64,000 nucleotides of DNA from Halogeometricum sp. S3BR5-2 (GTDB lineage Archaea; Halobacteriota; Halobacteria; Halobacteriales; Haloferacaceae): contig NZ_JAMQOQ010000003.1 of NCBI RefSeq assembly GCF_031624635.1, forward strand, positions 372,001 through 436,000, in the 5' to 3' direction. Under the pieces are notes generated by a model that ran no database searches, was not told the DNA's origin, and saw only the letters and a list, made by a program, of their open reading frames with translations. Below, in pieces: positions 35,302 to 57,694 of this stretch. The translations under genes were made by a program, and so were the position numbers. Positions within the stretch are counted from its first letter, which is position 1, and each line of letters opens with the position of its first letter.

Positions 35302-36450
35302 ATGACGACGACAACAGACGACGCGCGAACGACGATGGACGATATCGTAGTGCTGATCACCGGCGCGGGCGCCCCCGGCGCTTCGGGAATCATCAAGAGC
35401 CTGCGCTCGGTCGACGAACGCGACGTGACCATCGTGGGGGTGGACATGAACTCGCACGCGTACGGGTTCGCGCTGGTCGACGAGGCGTATGTCGTCCCCG
35501 CCGGCGGCGACGACGACTACGTCCCCCGACTGCTGGACGTCGCGACCGACGAGAACGTCGACATCGTGCTTCCGCTGACGACGGCCGAGTTGGAACCGCT
35601 CGCGGCGGCCAAAGAGCGGTTCCGGGCGGAAGGCATCGAGGTGGCCGTCTCCGACCCCGACGCCCTCGCGGCGGCGAACGACAAGGGCGACCTCTACGAG
35701 GCCGTCGGCGACTTCGGACTGTCCGCGGCGCCGACGTACCGTCGGGTCGCCTCGGAGGCGGAGTTCCTCGACGCCGTCCGGGAACTCGGCTACCCCGAGA
35801 ACCCGGTCTGCTTCAAGCGGCCGGTCGCCAGCGGGATGCGCGGCTTCCGCGTCCTCGACCCCGACCGCGACCGGTTGGACAGCCTCCTCAACGAGAAGCC
35901 CACGGCGGCGACGACGACGCTCGACGAGATCGTCCCGGTGCTCTCCTCGGGCGAGGAGTTCCCGGAACTCGTCGTCATGGAGTTCCTCCCCGGTGCCGAG
36001 TACAGCGTCGACGTGTTGGCGATGGGCGACGAGGTCGGCCCTGTCGTTCCGCGGTCGCGCGAGCGGACCCGAGCGGGCATCTCCTTCGAGGGGGTCGTCG
36101 AGCGCAACGAGGACCTCATCGACGCGGCGACGGAGATCTGCCGACGCCTCGGTCTGGAGTACAGCGTCAACCTCCAGTTCAAGTACGACGCGGACGGGAC
36201 GCCGAAGCTCTTGGAGATAAATCCGCGCGTCTCGGGGACGATCATCATGTGCGTCGGCGCGGGGGCGAACTTCCCCTACTTCGCCGTGAAGCACGCGCTG
36301 GGGGAGGACATTCCGCCGGTCGACGTCGACTGGGGGACGCGGATGATCCGGTACTGGCAGGAGGTGTTTCACTCACCCGACGGAACCCTGTTCCACGTCA
36401 CCGGCGAGAACGACCGGGCACCCGTCGTGCGGGGACGCGGACAGCGATGA
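35302..36450 (+). CDS. ATP-grasp ligase (CarB-like, polysaccharide-cluster type)
   Basis: 382 aa. An N-terminal Rossmann-like domain (VVLITGAGAPGASGIIKSLR) is followed by ATP-grasp signatures: an ATP-binding lysine in CFKRPVASGMRGFRV near residue 175, VVMEFLPGAEYSVDV near 230, and the Mg-binding KLLEINPRVSGTI near 305. It resembles the short carbamoyl-phosphate-synthase-like proteins found in capsule and O-antigen clusters, which probably join an acid to an amine. Its stop overlaps the next gene's start (ATGA), coupling it to the HAD phosphatase. Substrates unknown. Confidence 0.85.
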   Translation: MTTTTDDARTTMDDIVVLITGAGAPGASGIIKSLRSVDERDVTIVGVDMNSHAYGFALVDEAYVVPAGGDDDYVPRLLDVATDENVDIVLPLTTAELEPLAAAKERFRAEGIEVAVSDPDALAAANDKGDLYEAVGDFGLSAAPTYRRVASEAEFLDAVRELGYPENPVCFKRPVASGMRGFRVLDPDRDRLDSLLNEKPTAATTTLDEIVPVLSSGEEFPELVVMEFLPGAEYSVDVLAMGDEVGPVVPRSRERTRAGISFEGVVERNEDLIDAATEICRRLGLEYSVNLQFKYDADGTPKLLEINPRVSGTIIMCVGAGANFPYFAVKHALGEDIPPVDVDWGTRMIRYWQEVFHSPDGTLFHVTGENDRAPVVRGRGQR

Positions 36451-37109
36451 GAGCCGTCTGCTTCGACCTCGACGACACGCTGTTCGACTACCATCAGTAC
36501 GTCCGCGGCGGACTGCTGGCGGCGGCGGCGGCGCTCGAAGCCCGAACCGGACGGGACCACGGCGAGGAACTCCTCTCGCTGTACTTCGAGGAGGGCGTGA
36601 CCGACGCAACGTTCGACCGACTGCTGTCGCGACACGACCTGTCGCCGTCGCTCGTCCCCGAACTGGTCGAGGCGTACCACGGCTCTCCCACCGAGATGCG
36701 GCTCTCCCCGTACCCGGACGCGCGTCCGACGCTCGACCGCCTCGCGGACGACTACGCGCTCGGCGTCGTCACCGACGGTCGGAACGGTCACGCGAAACTC
36801 GACGTCCTCGGACTGGAGACGTACTTCGAGACGGTCGTCGTCACGCCGGAGCACGGCATCTCGAAGCGCGAGGAGCGCGCGTTCAGACTCGCCCTCGACG
36901 ACCTGGGCGTCGACCCGGCCCGGACCGCCTACGTCGGCGACAACCCGGTGACCGACTTCCGCGAGCCGAACCGTCTCGGCATGCGGACGGTCCGCCTCCG
37001 TCGGGGACGCTACCGGGACCGGACGCCGGAAGACGGCGCGCGGCCGGACCACGTGATCGACTCGCTCGACCGACTCCCCTCGCTCCTCGAACCGAACCCG
37101 CACCCATGA
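36447..37109 (+). CDS. HAD-superfamily phosphatase
   Basis: 220 aa. All HAD motifs are seen: FDLDDTLFD (nucleophile Asp7), VTDGRN (motif II), KLDVLGLETYFETVVVTPEHGISKRE containing the motif III Lys, and YVGDNPVTDF (motif IV). Overlaps the ATP-grasp gene by four bases. An ATP-grasp/HAD pair is common in polysaccharide clusters; it may remove a phosphate from a sugar-derived intermediate. Confidence 0.87.
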   Translation: MRAVCFDLDDTLFDYHQYVRGGLLAAAAALEARTGRDHGEELLSLYFEEGVTDATFDRLLSRHDLSPSLVPELVEAYHGSPTEMRLSPYPDARPTLDRLADDYALGVVTDGRNGHAKLDVLGLETYFETVVVTPEHGISKREERAFRLALDDLGVDPARTAYVGDNPVTDFREPNRLGMRTVRLRRGRYRDRTPEDGARPDHVIDSLDRLPSLLEPNPHP

Positions 37110-37155
37110 CCGCTCGAACGCGCCTCCGGAGAGACGGACGGGCAGGTGGACCGCC

Positions 37156-39138
37156 GTGAGCACCCACCCGATCAGCCGCGTCCGGCAGGTCGTCGTCTCG
37201 CCGTGGTTCGTCGCCTCGGCCGTCCTCCTCGCGGGCACGGCGGGCCTCGTCATCGAACTGTTCGTCTCCAACCCGTACACGCAGGTACTCCCCGCGGCCA
37301 TCGTCGGCGGCGGTCTGTTCGGGTGGGCCGTTCGGTGGCGACGGGCCGCGGTGCGTCGGGAACTCGCCTCGTTCCGGTACCGACCCGGGACGACGGCCCG
37401 CGCCCTGCTGCTCGTGCTCCTGTACGCGCTCTTCGTCGCGAGCATCGTCCTGTACGTCCGCGCGGGCTACCAGCGCCCGTTTCCCGTCCACGCGATACAG
37501 GTCGCGATATACGCGACGGTCGCGGTTCTCGCGCTTGCCCTCAAGTCGACCCGAGCCAAACTGCTGATTCTGCTCGCCGCGGCGGTGCTCCACCGGGCGC
37601 AGGTGTACTACGGCAGCGCCGTCCAACTCGGCAACGACGCGCTGTGGCACAATCAGGTCGCCGCCGCCATCGCGCAGACGGGGTCGCTCGCCCCCCTCGC
37701 GACCTCGAAGTACTGGTACGCACCGGTGTACCACCTCGCCGTGGCGTTCGTGTCGGCGGCGACGTCGCTGCCCGTGCGGCACGCCGCGTTTCTCGTCGTC
37801 ACCGTGGTCGGGACGGTCGTTCCCGCGCTCGTCGTGTTCGCGTTCCTCCGTCGCTGGTGGAGCGACCTCGTCGGCGTGCTGGGGGCGCTCCTCTACGTCG
37901 TCGGCGACTTCGTCGTCGTGACCACCGTTCACACGATGCCGACGACCATCGGACTCGCCTTCTTCGCCGTGCTGTTCTGGTACGCCGACCGGTTCCTCGA
38001 CGCACCCACTCGTCTCTCCTTCGCCGGGTTCCTCTTCGGACTCCTCGGCATCATCTACACCCACCAGTTGACGCTGTTCATCACGCTGGTCGTGATGCTG
38101 CCCTACATCGCGGGGGCGGCGTTCTGGCGGGGGAGGCTTCTCCCCCGCGATATCGGCCTCTCGACGCTCCTCGTCGTGGGGTTCGTCTACCAATCTGTGA
38201 CCACGAGGTACAGCGGACCCGCCGGCGAGACTGGTTCGTTCCTTCAGACTGTCGCTCCCAGTATTATCAGCAGCCTGCGACAGATCGCCGCCGGGTCGAG
38301 CCGGACGGCCTCGTACCCCCCGCGAATCGACGAACTCGCGATATCCGGCGCCGACGCCTTGAGCGTCGAACAGGTCCTCGGAATGGGTATTCTGTTCGGG
38401 CTCGCGGTACTGGGTGCCATCGCGTGGAGCTCTCGGACGACCGGCGACGCCCGCCGACCAATCGTCCCGCTCGGGGCGGCGACGACGGTCACGAGCCTGT
38501 TCGTCTTCGTCCCGCCCGCGTTCGGGGTGAACGTGTTCATCCCCGGCCGCTGGTTCGCGTTCCTCTACTTCCCCTTGGCTCTGTTCGCCGCGCCCGGCCT
38601 CGTGGTTCTCGCCTCGGCGGGGACGCGGCTCGTCGCCGACGCCGTCGGCGGAATCGGATGGGGGATTCGGCCGGCCGTCGCCGCCCTCCTCATCCTCGCT
38701 CTCGTCAGCCCGTACGCGGTGTTCATGACGATGAACGCGGCGGGGGCCCCGGACAACCCCGTCTTCGACGAGGCGCCGGGCGCCACCCGGATGTCGACGA
38801 CGCAGCAGGAGGCGTCGTCCTACCGGTTCGTCGACGACCACGCGACGGACGTGACCGTCGTCGCCGGCCACTCGGCGTGGCGGACGATACAGCGGCACTA
38901 CCGGCACCCCGCCGTCATCTACACGACGCGCTACGGGGAGTCGGGAACGCCGTACAGCGGGGACCTCCTGTACGTCTACCCGGAGTACGCCCAGACCGAC
39001 CACGGGTCGTACATACTCCTCTACGGCGACAGGAAGTTCCGGGTCCGCGGGCCGCTCCCGGGGCCGGAACCGTCCGCGAGTCGCGTCTTCTCCAACGGGG
39101 AGGTCGACCTCTACTACGAGGACGACGGCGAGGCCTGA
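37156..39138 (+). CDS. Large polytopic membrane protein, GT-C glycosyltransferase-like
   Basis: 660 aa with about 13-14 hydrophobic helices up to residue 545, then a soluble domain of about 110 residues that is probably outside the cell. The first periplasmic-type loop (LGNDALWHNQVAAAIAQTG, then YWYAPVYHLAVA) has the acidic and His residues that GT-C enzymes (PMT/ArnT type) carry after TM1-3. It could transfer a sugar from a polyprenyl phosphate donor, perhaps the product of the adjacent GT2 enzyme, or polymerise repeats. The start is GTG at 37156 with AGGTGG ten bases upstream. Family assignment is inference. Confidence 0.75.
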   Translation: MSTHPISRVRQVVVSPWFVASAVLLAGTAGLVIELFVSNPYTQVLPAAIVGGGLFGWAVRWRRAAVRRELASFRYRPGTTARALLLVLLYALFVASIVLYVRAGYQRPFPVHAIQVAIYATVAVLALALKSTRAKLLILLAAAVLHRAQVYYGSAVQLGNDALWHNQVAAAIAQTGSLAPLATSKYWYAPVYHLAVAFVSAATSLPVRHAAFLVVTVVGTVVPALVVFAFLRRWWSDLVGVLGALLYVVGDFVVVTTVHTMPTTIGLAFFAVLFWYADRFLDAPTRLSFAGFLFGLLGIIYTHQLTLFITLVVMLPYIAGAAFWRGRLLPRDIGLSTLLVVGFVYQSVTTRYSGPAGETGSFLQTVAPSIISSLRQIAAGSSRTASYPPRIDELAISGADALSVEQVLGMGILFGLAVLGAIAWSSRTTGDARRPIVPLGAATTVTSLFVFVPPAFGVNVFIPGRWFAFLYFPLALFAAPGLVVLASAGTRLVADAVGGIGWGIRPAVAALLILALVSPYAVFMTMNAAGAPDNPVFDEAPGATRMSTTQQEASSYRFVDDHATDVTVVAGHSAWRTIQRHYRHPAVIYTTRYGESGTPYSGDLLYVYPEYAQTDHGSYILLYGDRKFRVRGPLPGPEPSASRVFSNGEVDLYYEDDGEA

Positions 39139-39219
39139 CAGCGAGAAAGGGAGGAGAGGGGGAGCGACCGAACGGGCCGAACGGCGACGCCGACCGCGGG
39201 GCTCTCAGCCCGACCGGAG

Positions 39220-40632
39220 TCAGCCGAGACCGGACCCGCCCCCATCGATGCTAACGTTCCGCTTTCTGACGGTCGACCGCGTCGTCACCAGCGGTCGGCC
39301 GCTGACGTCGATGCTGGTGTCCGCGACGAGGCAGTTCCGCGAGTCGACGAGTTCGATTCCGCTGCGGTTCGACCCGCGCTGTCGGATGCTGCAGTTCCGG
39401 AACTCCGTCCCGTTCCGGCCTTCGAGTCGCGCCGTCGCGCCGCCGCTCGCACTCCCGCGGATATCGACGTTCCGAAACGTCGGGCCGCCGCCGGGACCGC
39501 TGCTGGGCTCGATGGCGTAGATAGCCGGCACGCCGTCCCGGTCGACGCGAACCGTCGTGTTCCGAACCGTCGCCTGCCCGCTGTCGCGGTGGAAGACGAT
39601 GGCGCCGAACCCAGTTCCCGCCTCCGGTCCGATCGTAATCCGGCAGTTCTCGACCACCTGTCCCTGCTGCCCGCGGAGCCGCAGTCCCCGCGCGTTCACC
39701 GAGTCGTTCCTGTGCGGGGGCACCCTGTCGACGACGATTTCGACGTCTCTCGCGGTCGACCCGGTCGACCCGAGGCGCACGCCGGCGACGTTGTTGTTCC
39801 GGTAGGACCCCCCTCGTACGTGCACCGGACCGTCCATCGCGTCGGGGATGGCGCCGCCGGCGCCCCCCGGCGCCGACGCGTACAGGCCGTTGTCGGAGAA
39901 CCCGGCGACCTCGCAGTCGCGGAACGTCAGTTCGCCGCTGTGCTGGTGGCCGACGTACATGCCGGTGACCGATTCGTTGGTCTGCGGGACGCTGGTCGCG
40001 ACGAGGTTCTCGACGAGTCCGGTGCCCGCCTCGTTCCGCACGTCGAAGCGGAAGGCGATGGCGTCCGCCGGATACCGGCCGACCGTGGTTAGATTCCGAG
40101 CGACGAAATCTCCGGAACCGATGACCTGGACGCGGCCGCCGTACCCCTCCTGGCGGAAGTCGAACGTGAGGCCGTCGAGGACGAACTCCCGTACGTCGAG
40201 AAACGAGAGGAAGTACGGCCCCGCCTCGTCCGCCGGTCTCGCCGGAGTGAGTACGGGCCGCGCTCCGGGTTCCGCGACCAGCGCCGCGTTCCGAAGCCCC
40301 CGGAACGTCTGGTTCGAGAGCCGGTATACCCCGTCGGGAAAGGACAGGAGCGTGTCGTCGTTCAGGTGCTCTTGGAGTTCCGAACCGATGGGCTCCGAAC
40401 CGGTCGGGTCGGCCCCGGCGTCCACCACGTTCGTGACGGTTCCGTACTGCTCCGCACGCGGCCGCTCCGTTCGCGGCCCCGGTCCTTCCGTTCGCTCGGG
40501 GAGACTCGGCGTTTCGGACACCTCTCCCCCCGGGGCGCCGCACCCGGCGAGTGCGGCCGTTCCCAGCGCCGCCGCCCCCAGTTTCAGGGCGTTCCGACGG
40601 GAAAGATTCGACTCGGACGGTGGAGCGGTCAT
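39220..40632 (-). CDS. Tat-exported lipoprotein with right-handed beta-helix domain
   Basis: 470 aa. Signal: SRRNALKLGAAALGTAALAGC, a twin-arginine motif plus lipobox, so it is exported folded and lipid-anchored. From about residue 70 to the end the chain is a right-handed beta helix of the pectate-lyase type (LDGLTFDFRQEG, ARNLTTVGRY, ENLVATSVPQ, FRDCEVAGFSDNGLYA, VENCRITIGPEAG, FRNVDIRGS). These folds bind or cut polysaccharide. The start is set by the signal peptide and by a TATA box 29 bases upstream; the open frame upstream is rejected. No active-site set can be named. Confidence 0.85.
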   Translation of the reverse strand: MTAPPSESNLSRRNALKLGAAALGTAALAGCGAPGGEVSETPSLPERTEGPGPRTERPRAEQYGTVTNVVDAGADPTGSEPIGSELQEHLNDDTLLSFPDGVYRLSNQTFRGLRNAALVAEPGARPVLTPARPADEAGPYFLSFLDVREFVLDGLTFDFRQEGYGGRVQVIGSGDFVARNLTTVGRYPADAIAFRFDVRNEAGTGLVENLVATSVPQTNESVTGMYVGHQHSGELTFRDCEVAGFSDNGLYASAPGGAGGAIPDAMDGPVHVRGGSYRNNNVAGVRLGSTGSTARDVEIVVDRVPPHRNDSVNARGLRLRGQQGQVVENCRITIGPEAGTGFGAIVFHRDSGQATVRNTTVRVDRDGVPAIYAIEPSSGPGGGPTFRNVDIRGSASGGATARLEGRNGTEFRNCSIRQRGSNRSGIELVDSRNCLVADTSIDVSGRPLVTTRSTVRKRNVSIDGGGSGLG

Positions 40633-40660
40633 TCTGGTCCTAGTCGACGGTCTGCGGCGA

Positions 40661-40668
40661 TATTTAGG
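40661..40668 (-). promoter_or_regulatory. TATA box of the Tat beta-helix lipoprotein gene
   Basis: Minus-strand CCTAAATA ends about 28 bases before the ATG at 40632, giving a leaderless transcript and supporting that start over codons further upstream. Confidence 0.5.
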
Positions 40669-40759
40669 TTTTGCCCGCGGCATGGTCCCCATCGCGGCCG
40701 GCCCACCCGTGGGAGAGTTTCGGTCGCCGTCCTCGTTCTCCGGACAGTTCGACTCACAG

Positions 40760-40786
40760 ACGTTGTTGCTAGCCATCTCGTAACCA
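40760..40786 (+). promoter_or_regulatory. 27-base element conserved before both beta-helix paralogs, copy 1
   Basis: The stretch, with core ACGTTGTTGCTAGCCA, matches 57581-57607 at 24 of 27 positions. It begins 113 bases before the ATG at 40873; the other copy begins 114 bases before its ATG. Sequence between the element and each start codon is much less conserved, so the element itself is under constraint or was recently copied. Confidence 0.55.
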
Positions 40787-40872
40787 GACGTGGGCAGTCG
40801 GTTCCGTTTCGGGACACAAACACGGATATTCTCGTAATAATCACTATCCGGATTCCGGGTTAGTTCCGCCCG

Positions 40873-42897
40873 ATGCCTCGCAAGACATCTCAGGCAGAGC
40901 ACACCGACGAGCGAGACAGCGGAGGGGAGAGCCATCTGAGTCGACGGTCGTGGCTCAAACTCTCCGGCGTCGCCGCCACGGGCGCGCTGTTGAGCAGCGG
41001 CGTGGTCTCCGCACAGTCGGCCGAGTTCCCGAACACGATTCTCGTCGACGCCCGCGACGCCGACGGGGCGAGCGAGTACTCCTTCGCGGTTTCCGAAGCC
41101 GTACAGCCGGTCGAATCGACCGACGCGAGCGCCGACTTCGTCACCGACGACGCGAACGTGGCGGCGACGGCGGAGAACGCGCTTCACGCCTACCACTACA
41201 GCGGTAACTTGGTCTCCTTCTCCATCGACGGCTCCGCCTTCGCCGCCTTCGGCGAGGACGTCGGCTCAGACCTCGGCGGTTCCGCCGAAGCCGACGACGG
41301 CGCCGACTCGGGGTCCGACGACTCCGACGACGGGAGCGGGTCCGAACACCAACTCCGAATCACCTCCGGGTCCAACGTGGAGTACGCGTTCACGACGACC
41401 GGCGAGATTCGGAAGAACCTCGACGCGGGCGACAACTCCGCGGAGGAGAACAACGATTCGGTCACCCAGAACGACGACGGCACGTGGACCGCCGAGGGCC
41501 TCACGGGCAACGGCTACGGCGACAGCTACACGTTCACAGGCGAAATCGTGTCGTTCGAGCCGACGACGGGGTCGTACTCCCTCGTCTACGACGGGTCGCA
41601 GACCACCGCCGCGGAACTCGTCGGCGACTCGAACGAACTGCGAATCGTCTCGGAGTCGGACGTCGACTACGCGTTCACGGCGACCGGCACCGTGGAGAAG
41701 GACCTCGACGCGGGCGATTACGCCGCCGAAGGCGACAACGACGCCGTCACGGAGAACGACGACGACACGTTCACCGCCGAGGGGATGACCGGAAACGGCT
41801 ACGGCGACACGTATCAGGTCGCGGGCGACGTGGTGGCCTTCGAGCCGATGACCGGTTCCTACACGTTGACGTACGACGGGACCGAACTCACCGCAGCCGA
41901 GTTGACCGGAAACGAAGCACCCACGGACGACACGGGCGACGCCAGCGACGACTCCGAGTCGAGCGACGGCGACACCGGCGGGGCGAACCTCGGCGGCGGC
42001 GAGGGCTACCCCAACACGGTCTCGGAATCCGAAGCCGACTACACGGCGGGGTCGCTCTCCGAACTGGAGAGCGCCCTCGGCGACGCCGCGGAGGGACAGA
42101 CCGTCTACGTCACCGGCGAAATCGGCGTCGATTCGACGATAACGGTCCCGCAGGGCGTCACGCTCGCCTCCGACCGCGGCATCGACGGCGCCGAGGGCGG
42201 CGTCCTCGTCGCGGACGGCGAGATAGAGATGCTCGAAGTCGACGGCGACAGCCGCATTACCGGTCTCCGCCTCGACGGGCCGATGTCCACGTACGAGTCG
42301 TGGGACGGCTACCCGGCGGGCGCGGGCATCGTCTCGAACGGCAGCGGCGTCGAGGTGGACAACTGCGAGATATACGGCTTCGCCTACGCGGGTGTCAACG
42401 GCAGCAACGACGAGTACGTCCACCACTGCGACATCCACAACAACCCCCAAGACGGTCTGGGTTACGGCGTCGACTGCACGGGCGGCGACCAGACCATCGA
42501 GTACTGCACGTTCAACTACAACCGCCACAGCGTCGCCAGCAGCGGTAGCGGCAGTTACACCGTCCGGAACAACCACTTCGGCCCCGAGACGGTCGACCAC
42601 GTCATCGACGTCCACCCGCCCGGCGGCGAGACCATCATCATCGAGAACAACACGGTCGAGGCGACAGAACACGTTCAGGACGGCGGCGAGACCGAAGCCG
42701 TCTACATCCGCGGCGACGTCGCCCAGGAGGGCGTCATCCGGAACAACTGGTTCTACGGGAGCGAACCGAGCGACGGCGGCGACCCCGGCGAAGCGGTCCG
42801 GACGGCGCTGTCCTCGTGGGACGAGGCCAACGTCACCCTCGAGAACAACGCCTACGGGTCGAGCGAACCGAGCGGGGACATCGGCGCACCGCGCTGA
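40873..42897 (+). CDS. Tat-exported beta-helix protein with two internal tandem repeats
   Basis: 674 aa. The Tat signal is LSRRSWLKLSGVAATGALL (about residues 23-41) with an AxA-type cleavage region at VVSAQ. Residues about 155-245 and 248-340 are two copies of a 90-residue module, each ending in a variant of FEPTTGSYSLVYDG. An acidic Ser/Asp linker follows, and residues about 375-674 form a right-handed beta helix (DNCEIYGFAYAGVNG, VHHCDIHNNPQDGLGYG, IEYCTFNYNRHSVASS, VRNNHFGPETVDHVID). The last part is nearly identical to the protein at 57695-58864. Probably a secreted pectate-lyase-like or carbohydrate-binding protein acting on the cell's own glycan. Confidence 0.85.
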   Translation: MPRKTSQAEHTDERDSGGESHLSRRSWLKLSGVAATGALLSSGVVSAQSAEFPNTILVDARDADGASEYSFAVSEAVQPVESTDASADFVTDDANVAATAENALHAYHYSGNLVSFSIDGSAFAAFGEDVGSDLGGSAEADDGADSGSDDSDDGSGSEHQLRITSGSNVEYAFTTTGEIRKNLDAGDNSAEENNDSVTQNDDGTWTAEGLTGNGYGDSYTFTGEIVSFEPTTGSYSLVYDGSQTTAAELVGDSNELRIVSESDVDYAFTATGTVEKDLDAGDYAAEGDNDAVTENDDDTFTAEGMTGNGYGDTYQVAGDVVAFEPMTGSYTLTYDGTELTAAELTGNEAPTDDTGDASDDSESSDGDTGGANLGGGEGYPNTVSESEADYTAGSLSELESALGDAAEGQTVYVTGEIGVDSTITVPQGVTLASDRGIDGAEGGVLVADGEIEMLEVDGDSRITGLRLDGPMSTYESWDGYPAGAGIVSNGSGVEVDNCEIYGFAYAGVNGSNDEYVHHCDIHNNPQDGLGYGVDCTGGDQTIEYCTFNYNRHSVASSGSGSYTVRNNHFGPETVDHVIDVHPPGGETIIIENNTVEATEHVQDGGETEAVYIRGDVAQEGVIRNNWFYGSEPSDGGDPGEAVRTALSSWDEANVTLENNAYGSSEPSGDIGAPR

Positions 42898-42960
42898 ACG
42901 CGGCCCTCGGTCCGGCCCACACCACCCGAACCTCGGATTCACCGGCGGTCTCTTTTTCGG

Positions 42961-44442
42961 CTACGACAGCACCGACTCGACGAGTCGCGTGTCCAACAGC
43001 CCGCTGTAGACGGCGAGCGCCGCCCACACAGCCCCGCCGAGCGCTATCACGGCGAGGAGCGACGGGAGTCCGGAGACGAACGTCCGAGCGTAGTAGACGA
43101 TGGCGCCCATGCCGGCGGAGATGCCGACGACGACGCCGCTCTCGAACAGCAGTCGACGCACGCGGAACGGGAACTCGCGGTAGATGTAGGAGACGTTGAT
43201 GACCGTGTATCCGGCGTGCGTCACCACCGTCGCGACGGCCGCTCCGAGTGCGCCGAACGCCGGGATGAGGAGGAGGTTCAAGACGAAGTTCGCGACGGAG
43301 GTCCCCCCGTTCGCGATGGCGCGCTCGCGCCCCCGCCCGAGGTAGTCGAGGCTGTTCGTGGTTATCTGATTCACCGCGTCGATGACGATGAGGACGCCGA
43401 ACAGTTGCACGAGGGGAACGGCGTCGAGGTAGTTCGCGCCGAACACGTAGCGGATGGTCGGTTCGGCGACCAGCGCGAGTCCGACGCCCGCGGGAACGTA
43501 CAGCAGGAGGACGTGCCTGAGCGCCGACTCGTATATCCGAGACGCGCTCTGCCCCTGATCGCTGGCTTTCCGCTCGCCCAGTCGGGGGGCCAGCGTCGTG
43601 TCTATCGACCGCGCGGGGACGATGGCGAAGTCGGCTATCTGCTTCGCCAGCGTGTAGTAGCCGACCGCGACGGGGTTGACCAGCACGCCCACGAGCACCA
43701 TGTCGACCCGCTTGTCGAGGACGTCCGCGCCGCTCGTGACCGTCAGCGGGACGCCGTAGCGTGCGATCCGCCGCCGCAGTCCGGACTCGGGGTCGCCGCC
43801 GGTCGGCAGCGAGCGGTAGAACCGCCGGTAGAACACGACGAGTCCGAGGACGGCCGAGACGAGAAAGCCCGCCAGATAGCCGTACAGCGCGCCGACGGCG
43901 CCGAACCCGGCGAGGACGAACCCGGCCGCGAAGACGAACCGCACGACGCCGTCGACGGTCCGGAACACGCCGCTCCACTCGACGCGGTTGAACGCGTTGA
44001 ACAGCAGTCGGACCGCGATGGCGAACGGGTACAGCGCGAGGTAGCCGACGCCGACGGCGAGGAACGGTTCGACGGCGGGGCGGCCGAGGAGGCCGGCGAG
44101 GCGTCCGCCGACCGCCCAGAAGACGACGCTGACGACGACGGTGGCGACGCCGACGTACAGCAGGGTCGTCCGGACGATGTGTCTGACCTGCGTCTCGTCG
44201 GACTCGATGTACTCGGTGACGAAGCGGGCGCCGGACTTCGCCAGCCCCAGCCCCAAGAACAACTGCGTCACGCCGAGAATCGACAGCGCGAAGCTCAGCA
44301 GTCCGTACCCTTCCGGCGTGAGGAGGTAGCGGGTGAGGACGACGATGAGCCCCGCGTTGGCGACGACGTAGAGCACCTGCGAGACGAAGCTCACCTTGAG
44401 CCCGCTGGCCATCCGCTCTCGTACCGACTCCTCCGAGGTCAT
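42961..44442 (-). CDS. Polysaccharide flippase (Wzx/MOP superfamily)
   Basis: 493 aa with about 14 hydrophobic helices. The start (GLKVSFVSQVLYVVANAGLIVVLTRYLLTPEGYGLLSF) is typical of Wzx/AglR-type flippases: the L-x2-E-x-YG segment is the family marker. It should move lipid-linked oligosaccharides across the membrane, the step between cytoplasmic assembly and outside use. Last gene of a minus-strand run (deacetylase, DUF354, GT4, flippase). Confidence 0.9.
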   Translation of the reverse strand: MTSEESVRERMASGLKVSFVSQVLYVVANAGLIVVLTRYLLTPEGYGLLSFALSILGVTQLFLGLGLAKSGARFVTEYIESDETQVRHIVRTTLLYVGVATVVVSVVFWAVGGRLAGLLGRPAVEPFLAVGVGYLALYPFAIAVRLLFNAFNRVEWSGVFRTVDGVVRFVFAAGFVLAGFGAVGALYGYLAGFLVSAVLGLVVFYRRFYRSLPTGGDPESGLRRRIARYGVPLTVTSGADVLDKRVDMVLVGVLVNPVAVGYYTLAKQIADFAIVPARSIDTTLAPRLGERKASDQGQSASRIYESALRHVLLLYVPAGVGLALVAEPTIRYVFGANYLDAVPLVQLFGVLIVIDAVNQITTNSLDYLGRGRERAIANGGTSVANFVLNLLLIPAFGALGAAVATVVTHAGYTVINVSYIYREFPFRVRRLLFESGVVVGISAGMGAIVYYARTFVSGLPSLLAVIALGGAVWAALAVYSGLLDTRLVESVLS

Positions 44443-44485
44443 GCGTTCGAGCGAACCGTCGGGGCCGTCGGCGGCGGTCCCTCCG

Positions 44486-45463
44486 TCACAGTCTCCTCTC
44501 AGCCACGTTCGGTTCTGATTCCCGCTCCTCGGTCGGACGCTCCAGCGCGGAGCGATAGACGGCGAGGATTCGGTCGCCCATGCGGTCCAGACTCCACTCG
44601 TCGGCCATCTTCCGCCCGTCCGACCCCGTCCCGGACCGGAGGGCGCGTTCGAGTCCGGAGACGAGTTCGTCGTCGGTTGCGCCGACGGTGCTGTTCCGCA
44701 CCGTCCCGAGGGCCTCTCTCGCGAACCCCACGTCGGTCGAGACGACGGGGACGTTGCACGCCGCGGCCTCCTTGATCACCATCGGTCCGGCCTCGCGGTC
44801 GGAGGTCACGATGACCGCGTCGCTCGCGTTCATGTAGTACGGCATCTCCTCGTAGGGGACGCCGGTTATCCACCGCAACTCCGCGTCGACGTCGGCCCGT
44901 TCGACGACGGCCCTGGCGCGGGGGTAGTTCTTGACCGCCCGCGTCTTCCGATACGGGAACAGGACGACGTTCGCGTCCGTCTCCCACCCGATGCGCGCCC
45001 GGGCCTCGTCCCGCGGAATCGGACGGAACCGTTCGACGTCGACGCCGAACGGAATGACGTGGTGCGGACGCGACAGGTACGTCGACATCGCGGACGACGG
45101 GACGATGACCTCGTCGCAGTGGTGCGCCATCGTCCGAGAGACGCGCGAGACCCAGTCGCCGGCCATCAGGTCCGACCCCCAGAACGTGACGACGACCGGG
45201 CGGTTCAGTTCGACGAGCGCGAGGGGACTCAGGAGGCCGTAGTGGATGTGTATCAGGTCGTACTCGTGTTGGGACTGTTTGAGGAGGCTCACGACCGTCC
45301 GAACGTAGTCGCGGACGGACCGCGACGACTCCGAACTCGACGTCTCCGACGCCTCCTGACTGACCGCGACCGTATCGCTCGCCACTCCCTTCTCGGCCAG
45401 CGTCTCGACCTGTTTCTCGAAGAAGGAGGCGCCGTCGTAGGTGACGACGTTGAGGACGCGCAC
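44486..45463 (-). CDS. Family 4 glycosyltransferase (GT-B)
   Basis: 325 aa. Two Rossmann-like halves; the second carries the GT4 signature: VVLFPYRKTRAVKNYPRA (donor-binding start), then EAGPMVIKEAAACNVPVVSTDVG with the E-x7-E pair, and a C-terminal helix. It transfers a hexose or related sugar from a nucleotide donor. It lies 43 bases before the flippase gene on the same strand, pointing to a shared role in building the lipid-linked glycan. Confidence 0.88.
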   Translation of the reverse strand: MRVLNVVTYDGASFFEKQVETLAEKGVASDTVAVSQEASETSSSESSRSVRDYVRTVVSLLKQSQHEYDLIHIHYGLLSPLALVELNRPVVVTFWGSDLMAGDWVSRVSRTMAHHCDEVIVPSSAMSTYLSRPHHVIPFGVDVERFRPIPRDEARARIGWETDANVVLFPYRKTRAVKNYPRARAVVERADVDAELRWITGVPYEEMPYYMNASDAVIVTSDREAGPMVIKEAAACNVPVVSTDVGFAREALGTVRNSTVGATDDELVSGLERALRSGTGSDGRKMADEWSLDRMGDRILAVYRSALERPTEERESEPNVAERRL

Positions 45464-45644
45464 TACCTGCTTCCCCCATCCGGCCGCGCGGGCCCGTGAC
45501 GCTGTTCGTTCGGCGGGGGAGCGACCCGTCCTCCCCTCGTGACCATGCGGCGACCGCGGACGCTCGAACGGGTGGACATTTCGTCTCGGAGGTAACCCGA
45601 TTCGGACGTTGTAATTGTGGGGCTTTCGACGGGCATCCGAGGGG

Positions 45645-46547
45645 TTAATCTTCCAGTGAGGGGACGAAATCGACCGACTGCGCGTCGGTTCCTCTCAACG
45701 AATCGAGAAGTTCGCGGGGCGGGCCGACCCACGCTCCCATCTCGAGCGCCCGTTCCACCAGCTTCCGATACACCCGTTTGTAGTTCGGATACTCCCGCTC
45801 GTTGAAGTAGCAGGGATGCCAGAGAACCGTCATGATCGCCCCGCGGTCCCGCGCCCGTTCGAGGAGGCGCTCGCACGCCTCCCACGCGGTGTCGGCGTCC
45901 GTCGGGACGTCCGGCAGCGTGAGTTCCATGAGCGTGAGCGGGAAGACGACGAACTCGTCGTTCAGCGGCCTGAGGACGTTGTAGCCGTAGTGGAACCCGT
46001 ACTCGCGCGTCCGGCCGAGCGTCGCGTCGTAGTCGAAGCCCAGTTCGGACTGGAGTTCCCACGTCCGGGGCCGTTCGAGGTTCAGGTAGTGCTGGCGTAT
46101 CCCCGACACCTCGTGCCCCAACACCCCTTCGAGCGTCTCCTTCTCCTCGCGGAGTCGGTCGATATCGCGGTACGACTCGTAGGAGCCGTGGAGGCCCACC
46201 TCCCATCCGCCCTCGTCCAGTCGGCGGATGACGTCCGCGATGGCCGGGTCGGTCACCGAGTACCGCCCGGTGTACAGCACCCAGTTTCTCAGTTCGGTCC
46301 ACTCGCGCGGCGATTTGTCCCGGAGCAGGTTCTGTTCCTCCAGGAAGTAGAACGCCGACCGGACCCCGAGGTCGGCTTCGAGTTCCATTATCTCCTCGAA
46401 CTGCCAGTACGGGTTGTTGCCGGGTAACGCCGTCTTGAGGTGGTACAGCGAGCGCTCCGTGACCGCCCGGTACGGCGCCTGGAACGTCTTGTACGGCCTG
46501 TCGACGTCGTGCGTGAGACACAGCGCGAAACTGTGCTCCTCACGCAT
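45645..46547 (-). CDS. Polysaccharide deacetylase family protein
   Basis: 300 aa. FALCLTHDVDRPYK at residues 7-20 gives the catalytic-base and metal Asp pair, and GGWEVGLHGSYES near 115 the metal His in family order. Later, a VLWHPCYFN segment carries another conserved His. No signal peptide, so it acts in the cytosol on a precursor. Its start overlaps the 3' end of the DUF354 gene by eight bases, so both are likely translated together. Confidence 0.86.
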   Translation of the reverse strand: MREEHSFALCLTHDVDRPYKTFQAPYRAVTERSLYHLKTALPGNNPYWQFEEIMELEADLGVRSAFYFLEEQNLLRDKSPREWTELRNWVLYTGRYSVTDPAIADVIRRLDEGGWEVGLHGSYESYRDIDRLREEKETLEGVLGHEVSGIRQHYLNLERPRTWELQSELGFDYDATLGRTREYGFHYGYNVLRPLNDEFVVFPLTLMELTLPDVPTDADTAWEACERLLERARDRGAIMTVLWHPCYFNEREYPNYKRVYRKLVERALEMGAWVGPPRELLDSLRGTDAQSVDFVPSLED

Positions 46548-47616
46548 TCCGCGACACCCCCTCGGACTCGGCGGGCATCTCCCCGCCGGCGCCGCCGACC
46601 GCGGTCAACACCTCGGTCGCAAAGCGCGTTACGTCGATCTTGTCCGCGAGCAGGCGCTCCCGGTTCCGCCGCCAACTGTCCGTCGTCACCGGGTCCGAGA
46701 GGAGGCCTCGGATCTCCTCGAGCGCCTCCCGTTCGTCCGGCGTCGAGAAGACGAGACCGTACCGGCCGCCGAGTTCCGCGAAGTTGCTCATGTCCGTCTC
46801 CCCCGCGAAGGAGTTCACGCGTATCGCCGGCGTCCCGAGGATACCCGCCTCCGTCGCCATCGTCGAGGAGTCGGAGACGACGAGCGTCGCGTGCGCGAGG
46901 AGGTGGTGGAACTGGTGGGGCGGCACCGGCACCGCGTATTCGGAGTAGTGGTCGGCGTCACCCTCGTTGGCGACGAACACGCGGCCGTGCGACCGGAGGA
47001 ACGTCAGCAACCGCCGCTTTCCGCTGGCGCTGAACCCGTCGTGGAACACGTCGTGGTGCGCCTGCATGTCGCTGAACCGGACGACGAAGAACTGCTCGTC
47101 GGGGTCGACGCCCGCCTCTCGGAGCACGTCGGGGTCCGGCGTGAAGTAGTTCGGGTGGAGGTACGCGAGTTCGTGGAACCCGTCGTAGCGGTGTTGCTTC
47201 GCGCCGAAGTTCATCTCGAAGCGCTTCGGGGTGCAGATGACGTCCGCGAACGGGACCATCAGCCAGTTCGAGGAGAGTTCGCTGTCGGTGAAGACGACGC
47301 TCTTGGCGTCGGCGACCGTCGCCGCGTGCGCGGCCGCGAGGCCGCCGATGCCGGTGATCACGTCCGGTCGGAGCCGTCGCGCCTGCCGGGCGAGGGCGTA
47401 CTCGAATCGAAGCTGTCGGAGCGCCAACGACCCGAACGACGCGGACGCGCCCGCGAGGACGGTGTGGTCGATGCCGTAGTTTCGGAGCAGTTCGACCGCG
47501 ACGTCCTTCGCGCGGACGTAGACGCGGACGTCGTGGCCGTGCCGACGAAGCTCCCGGATGACGTTCTTGAAGAAGTGAACGTGCGCCGGATGCTGCACCG
47601 TCACGAACGCCTTCAT
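46540..47616 (-). CDS. DUF354 protein (UDP-GlcNAc 2-epimerase/GT-B-like fold)
   Basis: 358 aa. The N-terminus FVTVQHPAHVHFFKNVIREL and the C-terminal SDSSTMATEAGILGTPAIRVNSF (donor-binding strand-loop-helix) are hallmarks of DUF354, a family with the GT-B fold of glycosyltransferases and nucleotide-sugar epimerases. It is common in archaeal surface-glycan loci. First gene of the minus-strand run that continues with the deacetylase. The start is at 47616; the open frame upstream begins with an Arg-rich stretch unlike the family. Confidence 0.82.
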   Translation of the reverse strand: MKAFVTVQHPAHVHFFKNVIRELRRHGHDVRVYVRAKDVAVELLRNYGIDHTVLAGASASFGSLALRQLRFEYALARQARRLRPDVITGIGGLAAAHAATVADAKSVVFTDSELSSNWLMVPFADVICTPKRFEMNFGAKQHRYDGFHELAYLHPNYFTPDPDVLREAGVDPDEQFFVVRFSDMQAHHDVFHDGFSASGKRRLLTFLRSHGRVFVANEGDADHYSEYAVPVPPHQFHHLLAHATLVVSDSSTMATEAGILGTPAIRVNSFAGETDMSNFAELGGRYGLVFSTPDEREALEEIRGLLSDPVTTDSWRRNRERLLADKIDVTRFATEVLTAVGGAGGEMPAESEGVSRNA

Positions 47617-47937
47617 CGCGCGCGCTCCCCGCTCCGCCCGCCCCCGGCCCGTCGCGGCGGACACACTGTCGGATCTCTGTCGCTCATACCCGCCGCATGG
47701 GACCCTCTCGTGTTTGTAATGAGAGGACTGTCGTTCGGTTAATCATTACTGAGCGATGGGTCCGCGCTCCGAGCGGGTCGAAAGTCCCCATTTACAAAGC
47801 GCTCGGTAGCCGAACCGGCGTCCAATGATACAGAGAGGCGGTGCTGTCGACTCGCGACCGTGCGGCGTACGTCGGCGGACGGACGGAACGAGGGACCCGC
47901 TTCGAGAGTACGTCTCGGAACGACCGGTCGTGGGACG
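47617..47937. promoter_or_regulatory. Divergent promoter region inside the polysaccharide locus
   Basis: 321 gene-free bases. CTCTC and GAGAG flank a TTTGTAAT core at 47705-47725, a small inverted repeat about 90-110 bases before the DUF354 start. An AT-rich run GGTTAATCATTACTGA lies at 47736-47751. These are likely promoter elements for the two divergent transcripts. Confidence 0.4.
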
Positions 47938-49149
47938 ATGACGAGCGGTACCGTCCTCGTTCTCGACAGTCAGGCGCAGAACGCGCTCGGGTTGATACGG
48001 ACGCTGAGCGCCAAGGGGCTCTCCGTGACCGCCGGGGGGTACACGCGGTATCTGCCGGGTATGCTCTCGCGGCACTCGGCGGAGTCGTACGTCTATCCGG
48101 ACCCGCTGACCGAGACGACCACGTTCGTCGACCACCTGGTCGACCACCTCGCGGCACACGAGTACGACGCGGTGTTCGCGGTGACGGACCTGACGACGCT
48201 GCTCCTCTCGAAGTACAGAGAGCGGCTCGAAGAGACGGGCACGGCCGTCGGCGCGGAGTCGTGGGACAGACACCTCGCGGCGAACGACAAGGGGCGACTG
48301 TTCGAGGCGATGGCGGACGTCGACGTGCCGACGCCGCGGACCCATACGCCGGCGTCGCTCGACGACGTCCGCGAACTCGACGAGCGGATAGACTACCCCG
48401 TGGTCGTCAAACCCCGTCGGACGACCTACGTGGACGACGACGGGCAGTGTTACACCCGGCGGCTCTCCGGCGACAACTACGTCGCGCCGGAGGAGAGTCT
48501 GACCGAGCGGTACGCGTCGCTCGTCGACGGCGACGCGGCGTTCGACGCGGACCCGCCGCTGGTTCAGGAGTACGTCGACGGCCTCGAAACGATGTGCACC
48601 GTCGGAATCGCCGACGAGGGGGAACTGCTGACCCACTTCCAACACAAGAAGTTCCGCGTCTACCCGCCCTCGGGCGGCGTCGGCGCGGTGCGGCAGGGCG
48701 TCCGCGAACCGCGGATGCGGACATACGCCGAACGCGTCGTCGAGGAGTTGGGGTGGACGGGTCCGCTCCACGTCGAGTTCATGAAGACGGCGGACGGCGA
48801 CTTCTACCTGCTCGAGGTCAACGGGCGCTACTGGGGGTCGCTCGCGCTCACCATCAACAGCGGCGTCGACATCCCGTGGTACCACTACCAGCAGTTGACC
48901 GGCGAGACGCCCGACGTGGACCCGAACCTCCGGTACCGGACGGACGTCAAGCAGCGGAAGCTGTTCTACCAGGACATCCTCTGGCTCAACGAGAACCTCT
49001 CGCGGGGGAACGTCTCGGCGCTCGTCCCGTTCCTCACGTCGTTCTTCACGACGCGGGAGGAGTTCCTCGACCTGTTCGACCCGCTTCCCCTCCTCGGCGT
49101 TCTCCCGCGGACGGCGAAGATACTCGTCAACAGACAGGACCCGCGGTGA
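47938..49149 (+). CDS. ATP-grasp ligase, second copy type in the polysaccharide locus
   Basis: 403 aa. N-terminal VLVLDSQAQNALGLIRTLSAKGLSVTAGG resembles the pre-ATP-grasp domain. VVVKPRRTTYVDDDGQ near residue 160 carries the ATP-binding Lys. PLVQEYVDGLETMCTVG near 205 and LLEVNGRYWGSLALTINSGVD near 300 carry the metal-binding E-x-N. This subgroup occurs in capsule loci and is thought to ligate an amine or amino acid to a carboxylate. The next gene starts at GTG 49146, overlapping this stop (GTGA). Confidence 0.83.
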   Translation: MTSGTVLVLDSQAQNALGLIRTLSAKGLSVTAGGYTRYLPGMLSRHSAESYVYPDPLTETTTFVDHLVDHLAAHEYDAVFAVTDLTTLLLSKYRERLEETGTAVGAESWDRHLAANDKGRLFEAMADVDVPTPRTHTPASLDDVRELDERIDYPVVVKPRRTTYVDDDGQCYTRRLSGDNYVAPEESLTERYASLVDGDAAFDADPPLVQEYVDGLETMCTVGIADEGELLTHFQHKKFRVYPPSGGVGAVRQGVREPRMRTYAERVVEELGWTGPLHVEFMKTADGDFYLLEVNGRYWGSLALTINSGVDIPWYHYQQLTGETPDVDPNLRYRTDVKQRKLFYQDILWLNENLSRGNVSALVPFLTSFFTTREEFLDLFDPLPLLGVLPRTAKILVNRQDPR

Positions 49150-50012
49150 CCCGCTCGCCGCTCGACTTCGGACGTGCCGGCGAGGACACGCTGACGGGGC
49201 GAGCGAAGCGGTTCGCCCGGGAGAGCTACTGGCGCGCGCGACTCGCCCCGTCCGGGTGGCGACACCGGGCCGAACTCGACGGCCTGTCGGCGGAGTTCCG
49301 GATGGCGACCCGCTGTGAGTTCCAGCGGGCGACGACGCTCGTCGGCGAGGGAGCGGTCATCAGCGCGTTGCTGTCGGAGTTGGACGGCGACGAGGTGGTG
49401 TGGGACGTGGGCGCGAACGTCGGGATGTACGCCTGTTTCGTCCTTCGAAAGCTAACTGGGGGAGCGGTCGTCTGTTTCGAGCCCGAACCGTCGAACGAGG
49501 CGCGACTCCGGACGAACCTCGCGGCCAACGGGCCAGAACGCCGGTGGCGGACGTCGACCCTCGCGCTGTCGGACCGGAGCGGTCCCGGTCGCCTCGCCTC
49601 CGAACGGCGGGAGGTCGGCGCTGGTCACCACTATCTCACGGACGGAGAGGGGGAGAGCGAGACGGAGGGGCAGGTCCTCCGCGTCGACTGCCGGCGCGGA
49701 GACGAACTCGCCGGCGGGGCGTTCCCGTCGCCGGACGTCGTCAAGATAGACGTGCAGGGCGCGGAACTGAACGTGCTGCGGGGAATGGGCGATGCGCTCG
49801 ACGGCGTCGAGACGGCGTTCGTGGAGGTGCACGCGGAGAAGTGCCGCCGATACGGGACGACCGCCGAGGAGATAGAGGGCTACCTCCGGGACAGGGGGTT
49901 CTCGCTCGACTCGCTGGGCGAACCGACCTGGGACCGGCGCGGCGTCTACCACGTCCGCGCGCGCCGCGGAACGAACGCGGACGAGAACGGAAACGCGGAG
50001 ACCGAGAGCTGA
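49146..50012 (+). CDS. FkbM family methyltransferase
   Basis: 288 aa with a GTG start overlapping the ATP-grasp stop codon. SAM-binding motif I is VVWDVGANVGMYACFV near residue 83; VVCFEPEPSNEARLRTNL holds the acidic ribose-binding end of strand 2; DVVKIDVQGAELNVLRGM is the FkbM-specific motif. It would O-methylate a sugar or other polyol, as seen in glycan and natural-product loci. The Arg/Ala-rich N-terminus (residues 10-55) is helical. Confidence 0.87.
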   Translation: MTRSPLDFGRAGEDTLTGRAKRFARESYWRARLAPSGWRHRAELDGLSAEFRMATRCEFQRATTLVGEGAVISALLSELDGDEVVWDVGANVGMYACFVLRKLTGGAVVCFEPEPSNEARLRTNLAANGPERRWRTSTLALSDRSGPGRLASERREVGAGHHYLTDGEGESETEGQVLRVDCRRGDELAGGAFPSPDVVKIDVQGAELNVLRGMGDALDGVETAFVEVHAEKCRRYGTTAEEIEGYLRDRGFSLDSLGEPTWDRRGVYHVRARRGTNADENGNAETES

Positions 50013-50037
50013 ACGTGACTGAGACCGACCGCGCCGT

Positions 50038-51042
50038 TCAGCGGCTCACGACGCGGTAGGCGGCCTTCGCGAGGTCCATGCCGGCGCCGCCCGACTCGAT
50101 GCGGTAGTACGGGACGAGTTCGCCGCCGAACTTCGATTTGTACCGGCAGAGGCGCTCGGTGTTCGCACCGAGCAGGTCGTACCGATGCACGGAGTCGAGT
50201 TCCGGGTCCTCGATGATGTCTTCGAGGATTCGCCACTGGAGCAGGCTGTTGACGCTGACGCCCTCGTAGTCGACGCGGGCGCCGCCCAACCAGTATATCG
50301 CCGCGTCGTTCGAGTAGAGGACGACGACGCCGTTGAGGAACTTCCCGTTCGGGCCGCGGGCGACGTACACGCGGCTTCGGTCGCCGACCCTCTCCAGCAG
50401 GTCGCGGACGTAGGGCCACGAGAACGCGAACGACTCGCCCTGTTCGTCGTACCGGTCCTCGACGTTCCGGTGGATGGTCTGCGCCGCGTCCATCCCCTCG
50501 ACGCCGATGGTGAGGTCGAGTTCGTCGCGCTTTCGTATCTCCCGCCGGAGGCTCTTGCTGAACGACGACAGCAGTTCGTCGGCGGTGGTGTCCGAGAGCT
50601 CCAGTTCGTAGGTGAACTCGGGCGTGATCTGCATATCGCTCCACTGGTACGGTCGGGGGTCGAGGAAGTCCGTCGAGCAGACGAACCGGAGGAGCGTCCG
50701 CGAGGAGTCCACCGAGAGCCGTTCCAGCACCTCCTCGGTGAACTCGCGGTTCACCTTCTCCTGTTTCCGCTGCTTCGGGCTGTTCGGCGTCGCGATGGGA
50801 CCGAGGTACGGGACGCCGAGCGCCGGTGGCGGCGAGAAGACGGCGCGCCCGACGGCGTTTCGTCTGACGAACACCGGAAGTAGCGCGACCGCTTGGCTCC
50901 CCTTGAACCCGCCGTACAGCCGCAGTTCGGCCGACGTGTGCTCGTCGAGGACGGTCAGCGCCTCCTCGGTGTGGAAGACGTCGAATCCCGAAGAGGGAAG
51001 CTTCTCCCCCCATTCGGACAGCGACAGCGTCTCTATCTCCAT
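50038..51042 (-). CDS. FemAB/GNAT-like acyltransferase
   Basis: 334 aa. The chain has the two-lobed GNAT layout of FemAB-related proteins: an N-terminal domain with FDVFHTEEALTVLDEH and GGFKGSQAVALLPVFVRRN, and a second lobe with FLNGVVVLYSNDAAIYWLGGA. The helical arm (SSFSKSLRREIRKRDEL) and the LLQWRILEDIIED segment are typical. Bacterial FemABX enzymes add amino acids to lipid II from aminoacyl-tRNA, and exopolysaccharide-linked relatives occur in many clusters. It lies 63 bases after the WbpA-like gene on the same strand. Confidence 0.8.
   Translation of the reverse strand: MEIETLSLSEWGEKLPSSGFDVFHTEEALTVLDEHTSAELRLYGGFKGSQAVALLPVFVRRNAVGRAVFSPPPALGVPYLGPIATPNSPKQRKQEKVNREFTEEVLERLSVDSSRTLLRFVCSTDFLDPRPYQWSDMQITPEFTYELELSDTTADELLSSFSKSLRREIRKRDELDLTIGVEGMDAAQTIHRNVEDRYDEQGESFAFSWPYVRDLLERVGDRSRVYVARGPNGKFLNGVVVLYSNDAAIYWLGGARVDYEGVSVNSLLQWRILEDIIEDPELDSVHRYDLLGANTERLCRYKSKFGGELVPYYRIESGGAGMDLAKAAYRVVSR

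Positions 51043-52472: not shown

Positions 52473-52476
<4 letters not shown>
51106..52476 (-). CDS. Nucleotide-sugar 6-dehydrogenase, WbpA-like (UDP-GlcNAc dehydrogenase)
   Basis: 456 aa. VAVYGLGKMGLPIAASFA at about 36-53 is the NAD-binding fold. VLIESTVPPGTCSEV near 150 and FCPERTASGTAL near 184 belong to the first domain. The catalytic Cys is Cys296 in GVGGHCIPYYP; the conserved AECVKVFEGVYRDVNIALANE holds the family Lys and Asn. Two NAD-dependent oxidations turn a UDP-hexosamine into the uronic acid. Its place in a coupled set with WbpB-, WbpE- and WbpD-like genes suggests UDP-GlcNAc as substrate, but UDP-ManNAc (WecC type) cannot be excluded. Confidence 0.85.
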
Positions 52477-53461
<985 letters not shown>

Positions 53462-53465
<4 letters not shown>

Positions 53466-57607: not shown

Positions 57608-57694
57608 TCGGAACCCATCTGGTCCTCGAACGGTACTCTATCGAATAAGTTCCCGTAATAAATAATAATCGTATCACGTGCTTTTCGCCGAGTG

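Follow-up and report, generated by a model that had tools for sequence, protein, structure and literature searches.

A FemAB/VimE-like gene pair in a haloarchaeal glycan locus as a likely counterpart of the bacterial Wbp/Vim pathway

A glycan locus of Halogeometricum sp. S3BR5-2 was analysed in a stretch of 64,000 nucleotides (referred to as the window), which covers positions 372001-436000 of contig C3 in the 4.66 Mb haloarchaeal genome. The locus is considered likely to encode an archaeal version of the Wbp/Vim pathway known from bacteria: a VimE-like deacetylase would free an amine, on which a FemAB/GNAT protein would place an amino acid, with aminoacyl-tRNA as the probable donor. In Porphyromonas gingivalis and Tannerella forsythia, WbpA/B/E/D provide a di-N-acetylated uronic acid from which VimE and the FemAB/GNAT-like protein VimA form a 2-N-seryl or 2-N-glycyl sugar (PMC7468200). 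The assignment made here is based on gene content, linkage, co-occurrence and fold, and the reactions of the scheme are inferred from these.

An earlier note on this DNA had proposed that two ATP-grasp ligases and a FemAB-like enzyme decorate a surface glycan with amide-linked amino acids or peptides. All genes that it named are present and intact in the window. The two different ATP-grasp open reading frames score above the Pfam cut-offs; the HAD phosphatase gene overlaps that of ATP-grasp A, and the FkbM methyltransferase frame follows directly after that of ATP-grasp B. The FemAB/GNAT gene lies beside the uronic-acid genes, 63 bp from the WbpA-like dehydrogenase gene, which is followed by WbpB-, WbpE- and WbpD-like genes, and two NodB/CE4-like deacetylases are encoded, the one at 33509-34240 being a weak match. 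The interpretation given to these genes is partly supported, the main actor being FemAB with the VimE-like deacetylase instead of the ATP-grasp proteins. Amide-linked amino acids on a surface glycan continue to be suggested by the deacetylase, the aminoacyltransferase-like protein and the amino-uronic acid genes, which correspond to the bacterial Wbp/Vim set and are kept together in haloarchaea; the ATP-grasp proteins had to be given up as the core of the system.

Proposed pathway

Judging from their families, the WbpA/B/E/D-like enzymes would produce UDP-2,3-diacetamido-uronic acid. The four genes (51106-55185) were assigned from family membership and gene order, and not as equivalogs. The VimE-like enzyme would then strip one N-acetyl group in the cytoplasm, by analogy that at C-2, and FemAB would load the amine exposed in this way with an amino acid. 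Fold and gene linkage point to an aminoacyl-tRNA as the most likely donor, as in FemX and streptothricin-type enzymes. Assembly and export of the glycan would fall to glycosyltransferases of the DUF354 and GT4 types together with a Wzx flippase. Inspection of the FemAB and deacetylase sequences by eye revealed no signal peptide, and both proteins should therefore act in the cytoplasm, the site of nucleotide sugars and aminoacyl-tRNAs. Of the uronic carboxylates and freed amines that the earlier note had named, the amine and not the carboxylate is the likely acceptor in this scheme.

Conservation and linkage of FemAB and the deacetylase

The distribution of both genes was surveyed in 243 genomes of the order, with an ortholog threshold for FemAB of at least about 43% identity. 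A FemAB ortholog was found in 115 genomes, which makes the module common to nearly half of the sampled haloarchaea, and a VimE-like gene in 129. Both were present in 112 genomes and neither in 111, while FemAB alone was found in three and VimE alone in 17 (Fisher p 4e-46, uncorrected for phylogeny). Of the 17 genomes with VimE alone, 16 carry a FemAB paralog of ~37% identity. Joint gain or loss of the two genes was also seen inside the window's own family, and WbpB accompanied FemAB in 113 of 115 genomes.

Linkage was determined in the best 80 named FemAB loci from the species collection. A VimE-like gene was located within 10 kb of FemAB in 70 of them, in every case upstream of it and in the same orientation, and at a distance of at most 300 bp in 35. 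In a second set from the same order, with partly overlapping genomes, VimE was near FemAB in 33 of 40 loci. WbpA, WbpB, WbpD and WbpE were each found in 36-49 of the 80 loci and DUF354 in 56. ATP-grasp B-like genes occurred in 17, and ATP-grasp A, HAD and FkbM in none. FemAB recurs with the deacetylase, and ATP-grasp genes are missing from most FemAB loci. Because it recurs across haloarchaea, the pairing of FemAB and deacetylase is more than chance.

These data bear on the view that the window holds an ordinary haloarchaeal polysaccharide island without amino acids, whose pieces lie together since glycan genes cluster. Such islands do collect many families, and the two checked exopolysaccharide (EPS) structures of Haloferax species, H. 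denitrificans and H. gibbonsii, are without an amino acid (PMC3191746). However, the presence/absence pattern of FemAB and deacetylase is near-exclusive and their order is fixed, while neighbouring glycosyltransferase, Wzx and ATP-grasp genes are far more variable in the 80 loci than this pair. An ordinary island is thus regarded as improbable.

On plasmid pHME505 of Haloferax mediterranei the genes follow in the order WbpD, WbpE, WbpB, WbpA, WecB, VimE-like, a gene of unknown function, FemAB, FemAB, a run that resembles the T. forsythia set, epimerase included. The two FemAB genes of H. mediterranei are E6P09_RS16700 and RS16705, and the VimE-like gene is RS16715. Loci L042, L048, L062, L065, L066 and the Haloferax loci L084-L096 likewise contain a second FemAB paralog (~31-38% identity), in many cases adjoining the first, which suggests two successive or two-site transfers. 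In Haloferax, a conserved protein of 433 amino acids without a Pfam or NCBIfam match is encoded between VimE and the FemAB genes (L176:11109-12410).

Homology and predicted fold of the deacetylase and FemAB

The only NCBIfam match of the deacetylase at 45645-46547 is VimE, a UDP-2,3-diacetamido-2,3-dideoxy-glucuronate deacetylase, and this model was matched by all 21 scanned relatives. For comparison with VimA, a Parabacteroides distasonis locus of the order bcp-recA-GNAT-deacetylase was used. With a score of 731.7 bits against the VimE model, its deacetylase is undoubtedly VimE, and the GNAT gene preceding it was therefore taken as VimA. In hhalign comparisons, the haloarchaeal deacetylase profile matched Parabacteroides VimE with 99.3% probability (E 2.3e-20), and the FemAB profile matched Parabacteroides VimA with 96.4% probability (E 1.2e-9; 261 columns, ~21% identity); a control with an unrelated protein of the same locus gave 0.07%. 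These results show homology, not orthology, for both pairs, and the window deacetylase is a homolog of VimE rather than an equivalog. PSdeac1, the NodB/CE4-like deacetylase at 33509, was ruled out as a second VimE as it has no NCBIfam match. A VimE-like deacetylase (32%) is also encoded in a glycan island on a plasmid of Methanosarcina sp. Kolksee (L175), where no annotated FemAB adjoins it.

The window FemAB narrowly passes the gathering score of PF02388 (FemABX; 26.9 bits, threshold 24 bits), and its best Pfam match is PF13480 (Acetyltransf_6; 65.9 bits). In an NCBIfam scan of 30 FemAB members, 25 matched TIGR03019 and five weakly matched FemX; the window protein, at 26.5 bits, misses the TIGR03019 equivalog cut-off of 260.35 bits. 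Published VimA matches TIGR03019 (PMC7468200). A sequence search of solved structures with FemAB returned nothing meaningful, and the fold search alone was informative. A model built with 41 sequences (predicted local distance difference test, pLDDT, 92.2; predicted template modelling score, pTM, 0.90) has a tandem GNAT fold with template modelling (TM) scores of 0.69-0.72 to FemX and 0.70 to FemA. The top folds in the PDB were FemA, the aminoacyl-tRNA-dependent peptide synthases Sba18 and Sbb17, and FemX (TM 0.65-0.72), followed by MprF/A-PGS, which likewise use tRNA. Residues R166, R297, Y301, K302 and K304 of FemAB are invariant.

Alternatively, FemAB might be a GNAT-type acyltransferase with acyl-CoA as donor, which would re-acylate the deacetylated sugar with a group that is neither acetyl nor an amino acid. 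Its top Pfam match, Acetyltransf_6, would fit such a role, as would HfsK of Caulobacter, a FemX-like protein of unknown donor with a functional link to the deacetylase HfsH (PMC5362036). Yet CoA-dependent tandem GNATs are clearly poorer structural matches (TM at most 0.51) than the aminoacyl-tRNA-dependent enzymes, the CoA motif [RQ]xxGx[GA] appears in no conserved column of the FemAB alignment, and exchange of VimA changed Ser to Gly (PMC7468200). An acyl-CoA donor is therefore deemed rather unlikely, and transfer of an amino acid by FemAB remains the preferred reading.

Observations at variance with the proposed pathway

Several observations weigh against the proposed scheme. Identity between FemAB and VimA is only ~21%, Parabacteroides VimA itself misses TIGR03019 at 0.001, and the window deacetylase reaches 66.6 bits where the VimE equivalog level (NF053580) is 440 bits. 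The modelled FemAB fold is no proof of the donor. No aminoacyl-tRNA synthetase was detected among the identified locus genes and no tRNA gene in the window, and the open-access literature yielded no account of a glycan with amino acids from a carrier of the locus. Haloferax denitrificans carries the locus (L091), and its EPS contains three diacetamido-glucuronic acid residues (GlcA2,3NAc) and no amino acid; the EPS of H. gibbonsii, likewise a locus-carrying species, is neutral and without amino acid (PMC3191746). A second WbpB is present in H. denitrificans too, and the published EPS may therefore stem from elsewhere and not from this locus.

ATP-grasp proteins

In both ATP-grasp proteins the Mg-binding E-x-N motif (LLEINPR and LLEVNGR, respectively) and the ATP-binding Lys are conserved, which places them in the ATP-grasp superfamily. 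Close relatives of ATP-grasp A (60-71%) were found in five genomes, all without FemAB and VimE. There the genes form a fixed run of HAD, ATP-grasp A, GT2 and PSdeac1, then WbpE and WbpD; in L159, PSdeac1 and WbpE are separated by a YdjM-like membrane gene, and L161 has a similar one. The ATP-grasp A run is a second, separate module with its own deacetylase, and the window carries both modules. Membership of ATP-grasp A in the FemAB module was ruled out, given its absence from all 80 loci and the lack of FemAB and VimE alongside its five closest relatives.

Orthologs of ATP-grasp B (at least 44%) are present in 21 genomes, 19 of them FemAB-positive, with about half of the orthologs in the FemAB locus and about half outside. 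Relatives lie between VimE and FemAB in L050, L111 and L124, and FkbM adjoins the nearest-sequence relatives in L074, L167 and L168. The structural model (pLDDT 89.7) is that of a plain ATP-grasp protein; 2pn1 ranked first and the L-amino acid ligase RizA second, with biotin carboxylases mixed throughout the list. ATP-grasp B is an accessory protein, and it is plausible that ATP-grasp B/FkbM and ATP-grasp A/HAD/GT2/deacetylase provide accessory decorations through an amide or peptide bond.

A rival reading, close to that of the earlier note, makes the ATP-grasp proteins the ligases of the amino acids, with uronic carboxylates or amines as acceptors and FemAB being secondary. The conserved run of ATP-grasp A with WbpD, WbpE, deacetylase, GT2 and HAD where FemAB and VimE are missing argues for this view, as do the ATP-grasp B relatives between FemAB and VimE, the L-amino acid ligases among the fold matches of ATP-grasp B, and the Thr that is amide-linked at C-6 of a uronic acid in Methanococcus by an enzyme not identified as of 2010 (PMC2952790). 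Most FemAB loci, however, are devoid of ATP-grasp genes, about half of the ATP-grasp B orthologs lie elsewhere, and among the fold matches amino acid ligases cannot be told apart from biotin carboxylases and carbamoyl phosphate synthases. A leading role of the ATP-grasp proteins accordingly seems quite doubtful. More speculatively, and with a low likelihood, two unrelated machines might aminoacylate the same type of diamino-uronic sugar, FemAB/VimE via aminoacyl-tRNA and ATP-grasp A via ATP, each with its own deacetylase. The window would then represent a rare genome with both, and the aminoacyl amine might be used on the archaeal surface for cross-linking or for the attachment of proteins.

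Gene map and neighbouring genes

Table 1. Genes of the glycan locus, with positions in the window.
Feature	Positions	Strand	Basis and remarks
NodB/CE4-like deacetylase PSdeac1, opening the ATP-grasp A module	33509..34240	+	PF01522, 16.4 bits, below cut-off; HDVD motif by eye
GT2 glycosyltransferase, polyprenyl-phosphate sugar synthase-like	34269..35300	+	PF00535, 71.5 bits; AglJ/PpgS models, 46 bits, below cut-off
ATP-grasp A	35302..36450	+	PF15632 (ATPgrasp_Ter), 126.6 bits; PF21360 (PylC-like_N), 52.3 bits; closest solved structure 2pn1, E 1.9e-16
HAD-family phosphatase	36447..37109	+	PF00702, 66.3 bits; overlaps ATP-grasp A
Polytopic membrane protein, possible GT-C or polymerase	37156..39138	+	No Pfam family match; relatives downstream of ATP-grasp A in L164/L165
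Wzx-type flippase	42961..44442	-	PF01943, 90.2 bits
GT4 glycosyltransferase	44486..45463	-	PF00534, 51.4 bits; adjoins FemAB in many other loci too
VimE-like deacetylase	45645..46547	-	NCBIfam VimE, 66.6 bits, E 1.5e-18
DUF354/GT-B glycosyltransferase-like protein	46540..47616	-	PF04007, 44.4 bits; in 56 of 80 loci
ATP-grasp B	47938..49149	+	ATPgrasp_Ter, 43.1 bits; CPSase_L_D2, 28.7 bits
FkbM methyltransferase, open frame	49152..50012	+	TIGR01444, 100 bits; PF05050, 66.6 bits; start codon not fixed
FemAB/GNAT, predicted aminoacyltransferase, VimA-like role	50038..51042	-	PF13480, 65.9 bits; PF02388, 26.9 bits
WbpA-like UDP-sugar 6-dehydrogenase	51106..52476	-	TIGR03026, 368.7 bits, above cut-off
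WbpB-like Gfo/Idh/MocA oxidoreductase	52473..53468	-	PF01408, 95.9 bits; NF040723 (UDP-GlcNAc 3-dehydrogenase), 232 bits, cut-off 450
WbpE-like DegT aminotransferase	53462..54565	-	PF01041, 408.4 bits
WbpD-like hexapeptide N-acetyltransferase	54562..55185	-	PF00132, 93.5 bits

Further genes were noted around the locus. About 6 kb from it, an acidic protein of 843 amino acids with DUF7827 and a PGF-CTERM motif is encoded (25301-27832, minus strand); it is an S-layer-glycoprotein-like candidate and could have a role as acceptor. Three right-handed beta-helix proteins (39220-40650, minus; 40873-42897, plus; 57692-58864, plus) resemble lyase- or epimerase-like surface enzymes, the first two having RR signal sequences of the twin-arginine translocation (Tat) type. 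A PhaC/PhaE pair of polyhydroxyalkanoate synthase and a MaoC-type dehydratase (60444-62155, minus; 62929-63612, plus) represent polyhydroxyalkanoate synthesis genes. A second WbpB-like gene (55%) is located 50 kb upstream of the window (C3:321339-322256) and may indicate another diamino-uronic acid cluster.

Significance and comparison with known systems

In a search largely confined to the open-access literature, no description of a haloarchaeal FemAB/VimE-like module was found. The earlier note had spoken of a new modification system; Methanococcus and Halococcus are established examples of amino acids on archaeal surface glycans, and what would be new is the gene assignment and not the chemistry in kind. 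The assignment provides a concrete gene set for amino-acid-bearing haloarchaeal sugars, so far known from wall chemistry without enzymes, and H. mediterranei is a genetically tractable carrier of this set. It also tells the widespread core of FemAB, deacetylase and Wbp proteins apart from the two ATP-grasp accessories, whose roles are separately testable. If it is correct, archaea would join the organisms in which sugars are aminoacylated by a tRNA-dependent route.

Two archaeal glycans share with the proposed product an amide-linked amino acid at the cell surface. Methanococcus N-glycans carry Thr on N-acetylmannosaminuronic acid (ManNAcA) and differ in that the amide is at C-6 (PMC2952790), and walls of Halococcus morrhuae are described with N-glycyl-glucosamine bridges (as cited in PMC4187196). 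Halococcus was rejected as a direct parallel: in H. dombrowskii H4 the only FemAB is an orphan on a plasmid with no adjoining glycan locus, and the genus is missing from the best 80 named FemAB loci.

FemABX transferases (FemX, FemA and Sba18/Sbb17/Orf11 of the streptothricin group) have the two-GNAT fold and a similar length and are the best structural matches, but their identity to haloarchaeal FemAB is only 11-13%. Within this group, Orf11 uses Gly-tRNA to aminoacylate an amino sugar (PMC12945691). The XrtA/PEP-CTERM FemAB described by TIGR03019 is matched by most haloarchaeal members, as seen above, and likewise occurs together with a deacetylase in EPS loci; unlike it, the window protein scores far below equivalog level and no exosortase was found among the identified genes. 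Archaeosortase A was considered as a partner for protein anchoring as in P. gingivalis, but its presence in 57 of 59 genomes gave no signal.

In the bacterial Wbp/Vim pathway, WbpS uronamide synthase is not essential and is absent in T. forsythia; the genes identified in the window include no WbpS-like amidotransferase, and no asparagine-synthase family was found among the scanned genes in a search confined to the haloarchaeal locus. Clusters of Wbp, VimA and VimE have been reported in Pseudomonas, Aeromonas and Vibrio, and the word "archaea" does not occur in the main text of that paper (PMC7468200). The haloarchaeal genes are highly diverged and often include two FemABs, the present window adds ATP-grasp proteins, and Type IX secretion is a bacterial system. 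Both share WbpA/B/E/D-type genes, a CE4-like deacetylase and a FemAB/GNAT protein, joined in some haloarchaea by a WecB epimerase.

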